From: Porphyrobacter sp. IPPAS B-1204
GTDB lineage: Bacteria > Pseudomonadota > Alphaproteobacteria > Sphingomonadales > Sphingomonadaceae
DNA: 64,000 nucleotides
Direction of reading: 5' to 3'
Assembly (NCBI GenBank): GCA_003724185.1
Contig: RHGM01000001.1
Location: 806,001 to 870,000 of the forward strand
The notes under the pieces are model-generated. The model saw only the letters and a list, made by a program, of their open reading frames with translations. It was not told where the DNA came from and did no database searches. A program made the translations under genes and the position numbers. Positions 7,220-14,578 of the stretch are shown here, piece by piece. Every line of letters begins with the position of its first letter. Within the stretch, counting starts at the first letter, position 1.

Positions 7220-8380
7220 ATGAATTCGACAGAAAGTCGCCTGATTGACGCATTGCTCGACCTTTGGGCCGAATCGCCGACTGAAGCGGTTTCGGTTCGG
7301 GCACTGGTGCAGAAGGCAGAGACCGCCCATTCGTCGATCCATTACCACTTCGGCAATGTAGAACATTTGTATCAAAGCGCCTCAGGTGCAGCCCTCGCCA
7401 AGGCCGAGCATTGGATGGAGGCGCAATTGGCCGCGCTTGGCACGCTGGCGGTTGACCCGCTTCCCCCCGCCTTGCAGGCGTCGATCATGGCGTCGGTGAT
7501 TGCCGACTGGACGGGCGATCAGCGCCGCCTTGCGATGGCGTGGCGCCACGCGCCCGGTGCAGACTGGCAGACCGCGTGGGAGCGGTTCTGGGGCGAGGTC
7601 GCAAGGGTGATCGGCCTTGGCGACAATGCTGACACCATCGCCTGCTTTGCCGCCGGAGAAGCGGCGCGTCACCTGCTGGTGTGGCATCCGCTGCTCGACC
7701 GTGCGCTGCTTGAAGAGACCACCGCAGCATTGGTGCTGTGGTTGCGCGAGCGCCGCCTGCAGCCCGATCCTGTCCGCGCCATGTATCGCACGCGCGCGCT
7801 CAGACATTACCATGCGCCCCGGCCGCATCTTGATCGGCTGAACGACCCGATTTCCGCCGCCGCCGCCGCACTGCTGGCAGAACAGGGCCATGTCGGCGTC
7901 ACCTTCCGCGCTGTCGCTGCCCGGGCACAGGTGACGCTCGGCAAGGTCATCCACGTCTATGGGACCAAGAGTGAATTGCTGCACGCGGCCCTGTACAGCC
8001 TCTATGAACGTGAGGCGCTTCGCGGTGATGTGGAGCAGCTTGTCGCCCGGACCATCGCGCCAGACGTGATGCTGGACGAGCTGCTCAACGCCGTCCTGCG
8101 CGGTCGCCAGCCGGTGCTGGCCGCCTATGACGAGATCGAGCGGGCGATCTACAACGGCGAGGATCACGCCCCGTTGCGGGGGCTGGTGCGAGCCATGGAA
8201 GATCCGAGCGGGACATGGGCGCTCGCGCAGCTGCTTGGCGGGCTCCATCCGTCCGCGTCGCTGGTGGCGGCCTTTTCCGCGACCATCAGAGGGATCGGTT
8301 ACCGCGTTCAGCACGCAGGCGGCACGCAGGATGACCTGCGATCCGGTGCTGCGGCGGTGCTGCGTCCTTTCGCGCGTTAA
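7220..8380 (+). CDS. transcriptional regulator with two TetR-type modules in one chain
   Basis: 386 residues, about twice a normal TetR protein. Residues 5-55 form a TetR HTH (SVRALVQKAETAHSSIHYHFGNVEHLY, with the typical YHFGN...L end of the recognition helix). Residues about 206-256 form a second one (VTFRAVAARAQVTLGKVIHVYGTKSELL). Each is followed by a helical region that could be a ligand/dimer domain, so one chain may mimic a TetR dimer. The reading frame is continuous through the join (residues 180-210), so this looks like a true tandem fusion, not two genes. It is divergent from the TonB-SurE-peptidase operon and probably controls it and itself. Ligand unknown. Confidence 0.85.
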   Translation: MNSTESRLIDALLDLWAESPTEAVSVRALVQKAETAHSSIHYHFGNVEHLYQSASGAALAKAEHWMEAQLAALGTLAVDPLPPALQASIMASVIADWTGDQRRLAMAWRHAPGADWQTAWERFWGEVARVIGLGDNADTIACFAAGEAARHLLVWHPLLDRALLEETTAALVLWLRERRLQPDPVRAMYRTRALRHYHAPRPHLDRLNDPISAAAAALLAEQGHVGVTFRAVAARAQVTLGKVIHVYGTKSELLHAALYSLYEREALRGDVEQLVARTIAPDVMLDELLNAVLRGRQPVLAAYDEIERAIYNGEDHAPLRGLVRAMEDPSGTWALAQLLGGLHPSASLVAAFSATIRGIGYRVQHAGGTQDDLRSGAAAVLRPFAR

Positions 8381-10192: not shown

Positions 10193-10274
10193 AAGGCAAG
10201 CCAAAACGCCGCTTAACGCTCTGAAAAGGAAGTGCGCGCTATGGTCACACCACCATTTGCAGGGGGGCCAGAAC

Positions 10275-10919
10275 GTGGCGACAGCGGAACAGGGGCAGAC
10301 GTTTTCGGAGGCGACACGGATCTTTGATCGGTCGGTAGATTCGACCAATTTCCTGCTCGACCTGTGGTGGCTGTGGCTGCTGGTCATCGTGGTGGTGCTG
10401 GGCCTGCTGAAACTGCGCAGCCAGCATGCCCTGCTGGGCGAACTGGACGAGCGTTGCGGCGCCGCTTTCGGAGACATCGATGCCATCCTGGCAGAGCGGC
10501 ATGAACTGATCCCCAATCTGATCGCGACGACCAAGGCCTTTGCCGCACAGGAGCATCGCGTGCTGGATGATGTGATCGACGCGCGGGCCCGTGCGATGGC
10601 GTCGGCCGGCAATGCCCGGCTGGAGGCAGAATTGCAGGTGGGCCAATCGCTCAACAACCTCTGGGCCATAACCGAGAATTATCCGGAGCTGGCAAGCTCC
10701 CTGCACTTCCGCGAATTGCGGGCCGAGATGGTCCGGATGGAAGACCGGATCAATGCAGCGCGCAAGTTCTACAACCTGTCGGTCGAAGAGCTGAACGCCG
10801 TGCGCCGGGCCTTTCCGTACAACCTGATCGATGGGCTGGCCAAAACCGAACGGCACGAGAAATTCAGCCTCGGCGAGAAGCGCGCCGAATACAGCGCACC
10901 TGTCGTCGCCACGTTCTGA
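10275..10919 (+). CDS. lemA: LemA-family membrane protein
   Basis: About 214 residues from GTG at 10275, chosen because GGGGGG lies eight bases before it; the track start is a TTG six codons upstream. One N-terminal membrane span (LWWLWLLVIVVVLGLL) is followed by the LemA helical domain: HELIPNLIATTKAFAAQE, ITENYPELASSLHFRELRAEMVRMEDRINAARKFYN and a VRRAFPYNLI end, all standard LemA blocks. LemA proteins are inner-membrane proteins with a large helical domain outside, often paired with M48 peptidases. Here the next gene, 11 bases downstream, is an M48-like protein, which supports the call. Confidence 0.88.
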   Translation: MATAEQGQTFSEATRIFDRSVDSTNFLLDLWWLWLLVIVVVLGLLKLRSQHALLGELDERCGAAFGDIDAILAERHELIPNLIATTKAFAAQEHRVLDDVIDARARAMASAGNARLEAELQVGQSLNNLWAITENYPELASSLHFRELRAEMVRMEDRINAARKFYNLSVEELNAVRRAFPYNLIDGLAKTERHEKFSLGEKRAEYSAPVVATF

Positions 10920-10930
10920 TAGCCGCAGAC

Positions 10931-12370
10931 ATGGCTACCGAGGGCGCGGTTAACGGGGCTGCCTGGGGCGGCGTCCAGGGGTTTGTTACCTTCACGCATG
11001 ACAACCGGAACCGCTTTTTGCAGGTTTTCGGGCTGTACGTGCTGTCGCTGCACATGATCGGCGGGCTGGTGGCGATGCTGCCGCTGCTGCTTTTCGATCC
11101 CGAGCACATCATCCTCGTCGATCCGGTGGGCTATTTTGTCCGGTACGGCCTGCCGGTGACGGCGATATCCGCTTTCCTGTTCTGGCGCCTCTACACCTCG
11201 CACACCGAGGCAATCTGCCGGAAACTTGCGGTGAGGGAGGTCACGCGGATCGATGAGCGGCGGTTTGTCCGCCTGGCCGAGGAACAGTGCATCGCACTAG
11301 GTATTCGCAAGCCACGCTTCGGACTGATCGAGGTGTCCCAGCCCAACGCTTTGGCGGTGGGCGAAGGGCCGCAACGGGGCTTGATCGCGGTGACGCGGGG
11401 GTTGCTGGATCAGTTGGACGACGATGAGCTGGCGGCGGTTCTGGCCAATCTCGCCTCACAGATCCGAAACGGCGATACCAGCGTGCTCGCAGCCAACTTT
11501 GCCTTGATGCGCACCGCGGTGCTGATGCAGGTGAACAATGCGTTCCGCATCGAGGATTGGCGGCAGCTGATCATCGTAGTGTTTCTGCCGCCGATGCTGA
11601 CGATCCTGCTGCTGTCGGGCATGATCACCAAGGCATCGCTGGAAATCGCCCGAATGGCGCGGCGCAGCGTGAAGCTATCGCGTTTTCACATCGCCGATGC
11701 CGAGGCGATCCGCGTGACGCACCGGCCGGATGCGCTGCATTCGGCGCTGGTGAAGATAGGCGGCAAAGGCGCGTTTCCGGGCAGCGCGGTGTTTGACGAT
11801 GTTCTTTTTGACGGGCGCAGCGACACGGATGGGGGGAGCCATCCAGCGGTGATTGACCGGCTGAAGGCGATTGCGCGGCTTGGCGGTCCGATGATGCAAC
11901 CCGGCCGCGCTCGGCGTGATACGCGCGATGGTGTGGCTGTGCCGGGTGCTGGCGGGTTGGCGGATGGCCGGGTCGGCTTTGGCAGGCGCTACACCGCGGC
12001 CCATTTCCAGCCGGTTGCACCAGCCGAGGAAAAACCCCGCGAAAAGCCGCCGGTGATGGAGAACGATGCCCTGCTGGTGATGATGCTGACAGACTGGAAG
12101 GGCTACAAGGCCTATGTTGCGCAGTGCAACGACTGGTTCGAATGGCGGACAAATGATGGCCGCAATCTGTTCGGGCTCAAGCCGGAACTGCGGCTGCCGG
12201 TTGCGGCGGTGACGGCGGGGCTGTTGGTGTTGTACTGGCCAGCCGATGGCAACTGGCAGAAGCTTGCCAACCGCTTCAATCCCGTGTCGATGACGACCAT
12301 GTTCTCGCAACTGGATACGGGCAGAACATTCTGCACCCCGTCATCGGGCAAGAACGAGGATTGCGCCTGA
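10931..12370 (+). CDS. M48 (HtpX-like) membrane protein lacking the zinc site, probable pseudo-protease
   Basis: 479 residues with several membrane spans (about residues 35-55, 70-88 and 212-232, plus one near 425-440 in GLLVLYW). The M48 framework is clear: NALAVGEGPQRGLIAVTRGLLDQLDDDELAAVLA. However, the expected HExxH block (AHELAHIRN) reads ANLASQIRN (about 172-180), and the third ligand region, normally YEADA, reads FHIADAEA (about 252-259). Both His and the zinc Glu are therefore missing while the rest is kept, so it is probably inactive as a metallopeptidase and acts as a partner or scaffold of LemA (inference). The frame is open and not obviously decaying. Coupled to lemA and convergent with the next gene. 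Confidence 0.75.
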   Translation: MATEGAVNGAAWGGVQGFVTFTHDNRNRFLQVFGLYVLSLHMIGGLVAMLPLLLFDPEHIILVDPVGYFVRYGLPVTAISAFLFWRLYTSHTEAICRKLAVREVTRIDERRFVRLAEEQCIALGIRKPRFGLIEVSQPNALAVGEGPQRGLIAVTRGLLDQLDDDELAAVLANLASQIRNGDTSVLAANFALMRTAVLMQVNNAFRIEDWRQLIIVVFLPPMLTILLLSGMITKASLEIARMARRSVKLSRFHIADAEAIRVTHRPDALHSALVKIGGKGAFPGSAVFDDVLFDGRSDTDGGSHPAVIDRLKAIARLGGPMMQPGRARRDTRDGVAVPGAGGLADGRVGFGRRYTAAHFQPVAPAEEKPREKPPVMENDALLVMMLTDWKGYKAYVAQCNDWFEWRTNDGRNLFGLKPELRLPVAAVTAGLLVLYWPADGNWQKLANRFNPVSMTTMFSQLDTGRTFCTPSSGKNEDCA

Positions 12371-13052: not shown

Positions 13053-14465
13053 TCAACGCATGATTTCATAAGGTACGACGCCACGCTGCAAAGGATGGGT
13101 GGAGATCAGCTGGTCACTCGGGGGATAGGCGCGTTGCTCGCAATCCGGGCGCGGGCAGATCCGGCACGACACGCCAATGGGCGTCACTGCTCGCTCTGAA
13201 GCCAGATCGATGCTGTCAGCATAAACGAATTCACCTGAGTGCTGAACCTCACAGCCAAGCGCAACGGCATAGCGCCGTGGGTTGCGGTCGAAACGGCCCG
13301 ACCCCTTGATAAGCCCCTTGGCGATTGAGACATATCGGACACCATCGGGTGTCTCGGCCAGCTGAACCTGTATCCGATCAGGTATCGCGGCCGCCTCGTG
13401 CACGATCCACAAGGGGCAAGCGCCGCCAAAGCGGGCAAACTGAAAACGGGTGGCACTATGTCGCTTGGTAATGTTGCCGGCCATATCGACCCTACAGAAG
13501 AAGATCGGCAAGCCGCGCGCTCCTTCGCGCTGCATCGTGGAAAGGCGATGGCAGGTCTGTTCGAAACTGGTCTGATACAGCATCGCCAGTCGGTCGACGT
13601 CGTGCCGGAATTCGCGCGCGGTTTTGCGGAAGTGCCCATAGGGCATTAGGAGTGCCCCCGCGGCATAATTGGCAAGTCCGACGGTCAGCAGCCCGCGTGC
13701 GACTTCGCTCCGCAGCTGCGCAGTGTCGGCAATCATGCCAATCGCTTCGTCCAGCATAATCAGGGCAACATGGTAGGCAATCTGAAACCGGATGCTTGCG
13801 GTCGGTTGTCCGGCATCAATCACCAGCACCTTACCGGCTTCATCGAAGCGACGCAGGGAGTCCGACGGCCGGATTTCGACATCGATCGCATGATCTTCGC
13901 GCAGATGCCGGCACAATGCCTCGGTGCTGGGCACATAATCTGATCCACCAATCGTTGCGGCGAGATCTTCTGCCGCGCGATCAATCTGATCGACATAGTT
14001 GTTGGACAGATGGAACCAGTCGCGCACCTCCTCCCACGGCAGACGTGCGCCATTGTTGGCGTCAACAGTGAGCGTCTCATCAACCATTTCGAGACGTTGG
14101 CTCGCGCGACGGAATGCGCCGTACAGGTCCACGAAGCGCCGGGCAAAGGTCGGCTGCTGCTCAGCCAACCGCGCCAAAGCAGCCGGATCAATCGGGCTAT
14201 CGAACATCGGATCCCCCACCGCCTCTCTCAACAAGACCGATAGGTGTTCGGTCTCCTCTTGCGGAAAATCCTGCCATTCGAGCGGAAAAAGGGCTGCTAG
14301 TCGCTCGATCAGACGCGGCGTCAGCGGTCGATCGTCATGTTCGAGTTGGCTGAGATACGATGGGCTGATCTCCAGCCGCCGCGCAAGTTCGGCCTGCATC
14401 AATCCGCGGCGTTCACGCAAATGGCGCAGCTGCACTCCTGCAAAGATCCTTCGTCCGGCGCTCAT
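13053..14465 (-). CDS. ScfR/PccR/RamB-type short-chain acyl-CoA metabolism regulator (XRE + IrrE-like + DUF2083)
   Basis: About 470 residues from ATG at 14465, seven bases after AGGA. N-terminal XRE HTH (LRERRGLMQAELARRLEISPSYLSQLEHDDRPLTPRL), then a central IrrE/ImmA-like domain (IRFQIAYHVALIMLDEAIGMI) and a C-terminal DUF2083 part with the conserved ACPLWIVHEA block and a cysteine motif CRICPRPDCEQRA. This architecture is that of RamB, PccR and ScfR, which sense short-chain acyl-CoAs and control acetate, glyoxylate-cycle or propionyl-CoA genes. Steroid breakdown by the downstream island releases propionyl-CoA, so a link is plausible but inferred. Three TTTGCAA boxes lie directly upstream, matching the motif known for this family, so it is likely autoregulated. 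Confidence 0.85.
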   Translation of the reverse strand: MSAGRRIFAGVQLRHLRERRGLMQAELARRLEISPSYLSQLEHDDRPLTPRLIERLAALFPLEWQDFPQEETEHLSVLLREAVGDPMFDSPIDPAALARLAEQQPTFARRFVDLYGAFRRASQRLEMVDETLTVDANNGARLPWEEVRDWFHLSNNYVDQIDRAAEDLAATIGGSDYVPSTEALCRHLREDHAIDVEIRPSDSLRRFDEAGKVLVIDAGQPTASIRFQIAYHVALIMLDEAIGMIADTAQLRSEVARGLLTVGLANYAAGALLMPYGHFRKTAREFRHDVDRLAMLYQTSFEQTCHRLSTMQREGARGLPIFFCRVDMAGNITKRHSATRFQFARFGGACPLWIVHEAAAIPDRIQVQLAETPDGVRYVSIAKGLIKGSGRFDRNPRRYAVALGCEVQHSGEFVYADSIDLASERAVTPIGVSCRICPRPDCEQRAYPPSDQLISTHPLQRGVVPYEIMR

Positions 14466-14478
14466 CGTCATGTCCTGA

Positions 14479-14509
14479 TTTGCAAATTGCTGGTTTGCAA
14501 CTTTGCAAT
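14479..14509. promoter_or_regulatory. three TTTGCAA boxes, probable ScfR/RamB-type operator
   Basis: TTTGCAAA at 14479-14486, TTTGCAAC at 14494-14501 and TTTGCAAT at 14502-14508/9. The published RamB-type core is AACTTTGCAAA, and CAACTTTGCAATT here matches it closely. The boxes lie between the divergent ScfR-like and LuxR-like genes, 14 to 44 bases from the former start. Autoregulation by the adjacent XRE protein is inference based on the known family motif. Confidence 0.6.
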
Positions 14510-14578
14510 TTAACATTGGACTGATGGTGCAGCCTAAGCAAGGTTGCGTTCGGGATAGTTTGCTACGGGAGACTGCAA

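Follow-up and report, generated by a model that had tools for sequence, protein, structure and literature searches.

The lemA-m48 locus

The window, by which we mean the whole stretch of 64,000 nucleotides that was analysed, carries an M48 gene directly downstream of a lemA gene on the same strand, with a gap of 11 bp between the two. The features used below are as follows.

10257-10919, + strand: lemA, 220 aa if read from TTG 10257, with one predicted membrane helix (PF04011)
10931-12370, + strand: putative M48 (HtpX-type) pseudopeptidase of 479 aa (PF01435, AlphaFold, Foldseek)
10991-10993: codon of residue 21 of the M48 protein
11447-11461, + strand: degenerate HExxH, here NLASQ (residues 173-177, AAT CTC GCC TCA CAG); most relatives have HEASH, the sister protein HQASH
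11498-11500: codon of residue 190
11684-11686, + strand: third-ligand position, Phe252 (TTT), with Phe in the sister also; 23 D-clade relatives have Asp here and those of the outer clade Glu
11837-11860, + strand: SHPxxxxR, a retained M48 motif (residues 303-310; H304 and R310 invariant, P305 nearly invariant in A2)

The M48 reading frame is unbroken, with the ATG at 10931 as its single possible start, and the first-pass annotation had the frame, its coordinates and the NLASQ pentad right. The product matches PF01435 at 1.4e-11 (45.1 bits against a Pfam cut-off of 20.3). NCBIfam HtpX models match it at up to 1.8e-21, all far below their equivalog cut-offs (76.7 bits against a curated value of 355). 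The AlphaFold model, built with 25 homologues, gives a confident M48 fold (mean pLDDT 83, pTM 0.79) in which the active-site helix, residues 164-179, reaches a pLDDT of about 95, and the model of an active homologue has the identical order of elements. Foldseek matched the HtpX domain 3cqb with a probability of 1.00, Ste24p (4il3) with 0.99 and ZMPSTE24 with 0.97, at modest E-values, and 3cqb was likewise the top HMMER match. By profile and by fold, then, the protein belongs by descent to family M48 (HtpX-type). The sequence and the predicted helices are consistent with about four membrane spans, two preceding the M48 domain and one or two following it.

The LemA protein matches PF04011 at 9.5e-35 (120 bits, cut-off 26.2) and the NCBIfam model of the magnetosome protein MamQ at 9.4e-21, the latter below its cut-off; comparison makes GTG 10275 a likelier start than TTG 10257. 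Two other LemA proteins are encoded in the genome; a TPM-domain gene is found near one of them and a DUF3137 gene near the other. A genome search with the M48 protein as query found no second LemA-linked copy. The genome has three further M48 proteins, each with HExxH, which are distant enough that this query did not recover them. Models of defence systems gave no match. Elsewhere in the window, positions 7220-8380 encode a 386-aa regulator with two tandem TetR_N DNA-binding domains, and positions 13053-14516 an ordinary HTH/M78/ScfRs regulator of the short-chain fatty acyl-CoA regulator type.

Active-site residues in the window protein and its relatives

Homologues were searched for in samples of the genus (114 genomes), the family (401), the order (401), a Novosphingobium-type genus (196), another genus (71) and the class (385), and in contigs of named genomes. 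This gave 33 LemA-linked M48 homologues including that of the window (32 distinct in sequence), and lemA lies directly upstream of m48 in every one of the 33 loci. HExxH is kept in 31 of them. The exceptions are the window protein and its nearest relative L062/L074, probably from the genus of Novosphingobium huizhouense, which is 62% identical, reads HQASH...RFHIADAEA and is referred to here as the sister; the two loci share 62.5% identity in M48 and 62.7% in LemA. The relatives bearing HExxH stand at about 52% identity to the window protein or less. The D-clade (L002, L003, L009-L014, L038-L052, L071, L075, L076) has Asp instead of the usual Glu as third ligand, with HExxH intact (23 of 23).

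The active-site helix reads DELAAVLANLASQIRNGD in the window protein as against DELAAVLAHEASHIRNGD in relatives. Within the pentad the changes are H173N, E174L and H177Q, with A and S unchanged. The first-pass annotation had NLASQ replacing HELAH; the local ancestor is HEASH, so that only the three functional residues were altered. The third zinc ligand of M48 proteins is the residue three before the A of AD, as seen in the other M48 proteins of the genome and in class-level relatives. Both groups have Glu there (ELEAD, EASTD and ETQSD in the three of the genome), as does the outer LemA-M48 clade; the clade to which the window protein belongs has Asp, and the window protein itself Phe252. Ile254 of FHIADAEA, which had been taken for the lost third ligand, is normal in active members (RDHIAD) and that assignment fails, while the loss of all three ligands is confirmed as H173N, H177Q and D252F. 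With NLASQ in place of HExxH and Phe252 in place of Glu or Asp, the protein is almost certainly not a zinc protease, as far as absence of zinc and of proteolysis can be read from sequence. Also, two histidines of the active members, His21 (found in 22 of 23) and His190 (in 20 of 23), are replaced in both inactive ones, by F/L and F/Y; these histidines may be part of the catalytic machinery or of a second metal site.

In the tree, window and sister pair at a support of 100/99, which makes the loss in part common to both and old. Next to them come L075 (HEAAH) and L012 (HETAH), both with Asp, and the grouping with HExxH-D types is supported at 97/95. Codon 174 is GAA in an active relative, CAG in the sister and CTC in the window. 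Most simply, as judged from two tips, the Glu and the third ligand would have been lost in the common ancestor and the two histidines in the window lineage. Independent losses of Glu in the two lineages are possible, but a common origin is likelier because the shared Phe cannot be reached from Asp by fewer than two base changes. A half-way stage in the sister, which is of another genus, means that the loss is old and stepwise and not a recent accident. Tested on orthologues, a recent local mutation is therefore contradicted for the Glu and the third ligand, both gone in the closest relative; the loss of both histidines is confined to the window protein.

The inactive set has two members, with one genome per species; no other was found in the Novosphingobium-type genus (196 genomes), genus g79 (71), two genera of 3 genomes each, a further one of 14, or the order and class samples. 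A homologue with E below 1e-70 is present in 3 of the 114 genomes of the genus. Viral contigs gave no relative, and plasmids only one weak Rhizobium match (32%). A short C-terminus was considered as a mark of the inactive type and ruled out, several active members also ending near 455-490 aa. A 767-aa protein of the cyanobacterium Roseofilum halophilum (L055:4218-6521; M48 match 1.5e-6) has TQLAH for HExxH and Leu at the third-ligand position; it is apparently an independent degenerate M48 protein without an adjoining lemA.

Constraint on the M48 protein

A set of 43 invariant columns was taken from 23 active-type relatives (22 different sequences). The window protein breaks four of these, namely H173N, E174L, H177Q and D252F, all in the active site, and keeps all 39 non-catalytic ones; the sister breaks two (E174Q and D252F) and no others. 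With breaks placed randomly over these columns, the chance of hitting exactly those four would be 1 in 123,410 (8e-6). The four breaks are exactly the four active-site columns, which is therefore not chance. For window versus sister, dN/dS of M48 is about 0.23 (dN 0.29, dS 1.27), as compared to 0.26 for LemA and 0.23-0.25 for active M48 pairs of like divergence; the window-sister ratio is rough since dS is about 1.2-1.27, near saturation, and it averages the time before and after the loss. GC by codon position is the same as in neighbouring genes. The end branches of the inactive members (0.39 and 0.36) are not accelerated relative to those of the nearest active ones (0.50 and 0.83). Together, conservation, dN/dS, codon composition and branch lengths speak for a maintained protein and against decay: the catalytic residues are lost while the fold and the other constraint are kept. 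A selected non-catalytic function is thus very probable.

Function of the pair

We favour, with some reserve, a real pseudopeptidase that has been retained for work other than catalysis, most likely as part of a membrane complex with LemA. The first-pass annotation had proposed a retained non-catalytic function, such as a scaffold with LemA. The function itself is well supported by the partly common loss in the 62% orthologue, by the constraint described above and by the linkage to lemA in 33 of 33 loci. The scaffold, with its presumed contact between the two proteins, fits this linkage, and that the work is done together with LemA is probable to a lesser degree. The window LemA keeps 21 of 22 invariant LemA columns. 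A comparison of the LemA sequences for correlated changes that might outline a contact surface gave no clear signal, only T166N being common to both LemAs with inactive partners. Among 13 homologous loci compared by blastp, lemA is the only conserved neighbour, and so no pathway is hinted at. The sister pair (L074:1-6000) adjoins genes for an Mpl-like Mur ligase and an LD-carboxypeptidase, which the window pair does not. LemA is widespread, yet to our knowledge its function is hardly known, and a search of open-licence papers for LemA with M48 or HtpX returned nothing to the point.

Other explanations were weighed against this one. The gene may be a pseudogene in early decay, the pair being unneeded, catalysis gone and the frame intact by luck. 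The patchy occurrence in the genus (3 of 114) implies that the pair is dispensable, and the window protein has lost more than the sister, as expected of ongoing relaxation. But the 39 retained columns, the low dN/dS, the normal codon composition and the branches of ordinary length oppose decay, as do the equal conservation of LemA and the existence of an intact sister at 62% that shares part of the loss, and we regard decay as improbable. A sequencing or assembly error hardly deserves consideration: neither E to L nor D to F can arise from a single base change, the reading frame is unbroken, and D to F is seen again in the sister, whose genome is an independent one. That the protein is still an enzyme, through a displaced metal site or some other chemistry, is very improbable too: the family SHP...R motif is retained, but neither the general base nor any of the three ligands is left, and with H21 and H190 also lost there are no obvious substitute histidines.

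A non-catalytic role independent of LemA is the explanation to be taken more seriously, if still an unlikely one. The protein could, for example, act as a decoy or in regulation and shield substrates from the other M48 proteases of the genome; lemA would then be its neighbour by inheritance only. Three other M48 proteins with HExxH are indeed present in the genome; pseudoproteases often regulate active cousins (PMC11266112), and MamO activates MamE-dependent proteolysis (PMC4794232). However, those three M48 proteins are distant from the window protein, the pair stays together in all 33 loci, and LemA and the M48 protein evolve at equal pace.

Returning to the LemA-linked pseudopeptidase, its history may be pictured as follows. 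The protein would descend from those M48 membrane proteases of HtpX type that are linked to LemA in sphingomonads. The ancestor common to window and sister would have lost the third zinc ligand together with the catalytic Glu, and the window lineage afterwards both zinc-binding histidines. Purifying selection has held the fold and all other invariant residues. The product may be an inner-membrane structural or substrate-holding subunit with LemA, whose old cleft would bind clients, either peptides or membrane proteins, and leave them uncut, so that the assembly performs only the non-proteolytic part. A stepwise conversion of this kind (HEASH/D to HQASH/F to NLASQ/F) into a purely structural LemA partner is a tentative proposal, possible rather than probable. 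If true, LemA-M48 pairs would generally have a protease-independent function that is kept when catalysis is dispensable. A natural catalytic-null M48 partner with an intermediate relative suggests that the pair acts without proteolysis, and the two proteins offer a ready-made means of separating scaffold from protease roles.

As for known systems, the HtpX (M48B) membrane metalloproteases share with the window protein the M48 domain, the about four spans (predicted helices) and the NA..G and SHP..R motifs, but the window protein has neither HExxH nor the third ligand. The LemA-linked M48 pairs of sphingomonads and Bradyrhizobium have the same lemA-m48 order, lemA being upstream on the same strand in the window as well, and about 46-52% full-length identity in the closest group; theirs keep HExxH and Asp (Glu in the outer clade). 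M48 is absent from a 2024 review of metallopeptidase homologues that have become inactive (PMC11266112), and an M48 pseudopeptidase may fill a gap in that record, as far as a non-exhaustive literature search goes. Among zinc families, the parallel is with the FtsHi pseudoproteases of chloroplasts (M41), which have lost HExxH and the third ligand and are kept as complex members (PMC11266112, PMC8197885). These are likewise membrane zinc-protease relatives with lost ligands, but plant AAA+ proteins of another family. In functional terms the nearest counterpart is MamO, a magnetosome protein of HtrA type that is no longer catalytic and works in another way (PMC4794232). In both, a protease fold with a degenerate active site would be retained for non-catalytic work, except that MamO has a serine-protease fold and gained metal binding (PMC4794232), whereas the window protein has the fold of a zinc protease.
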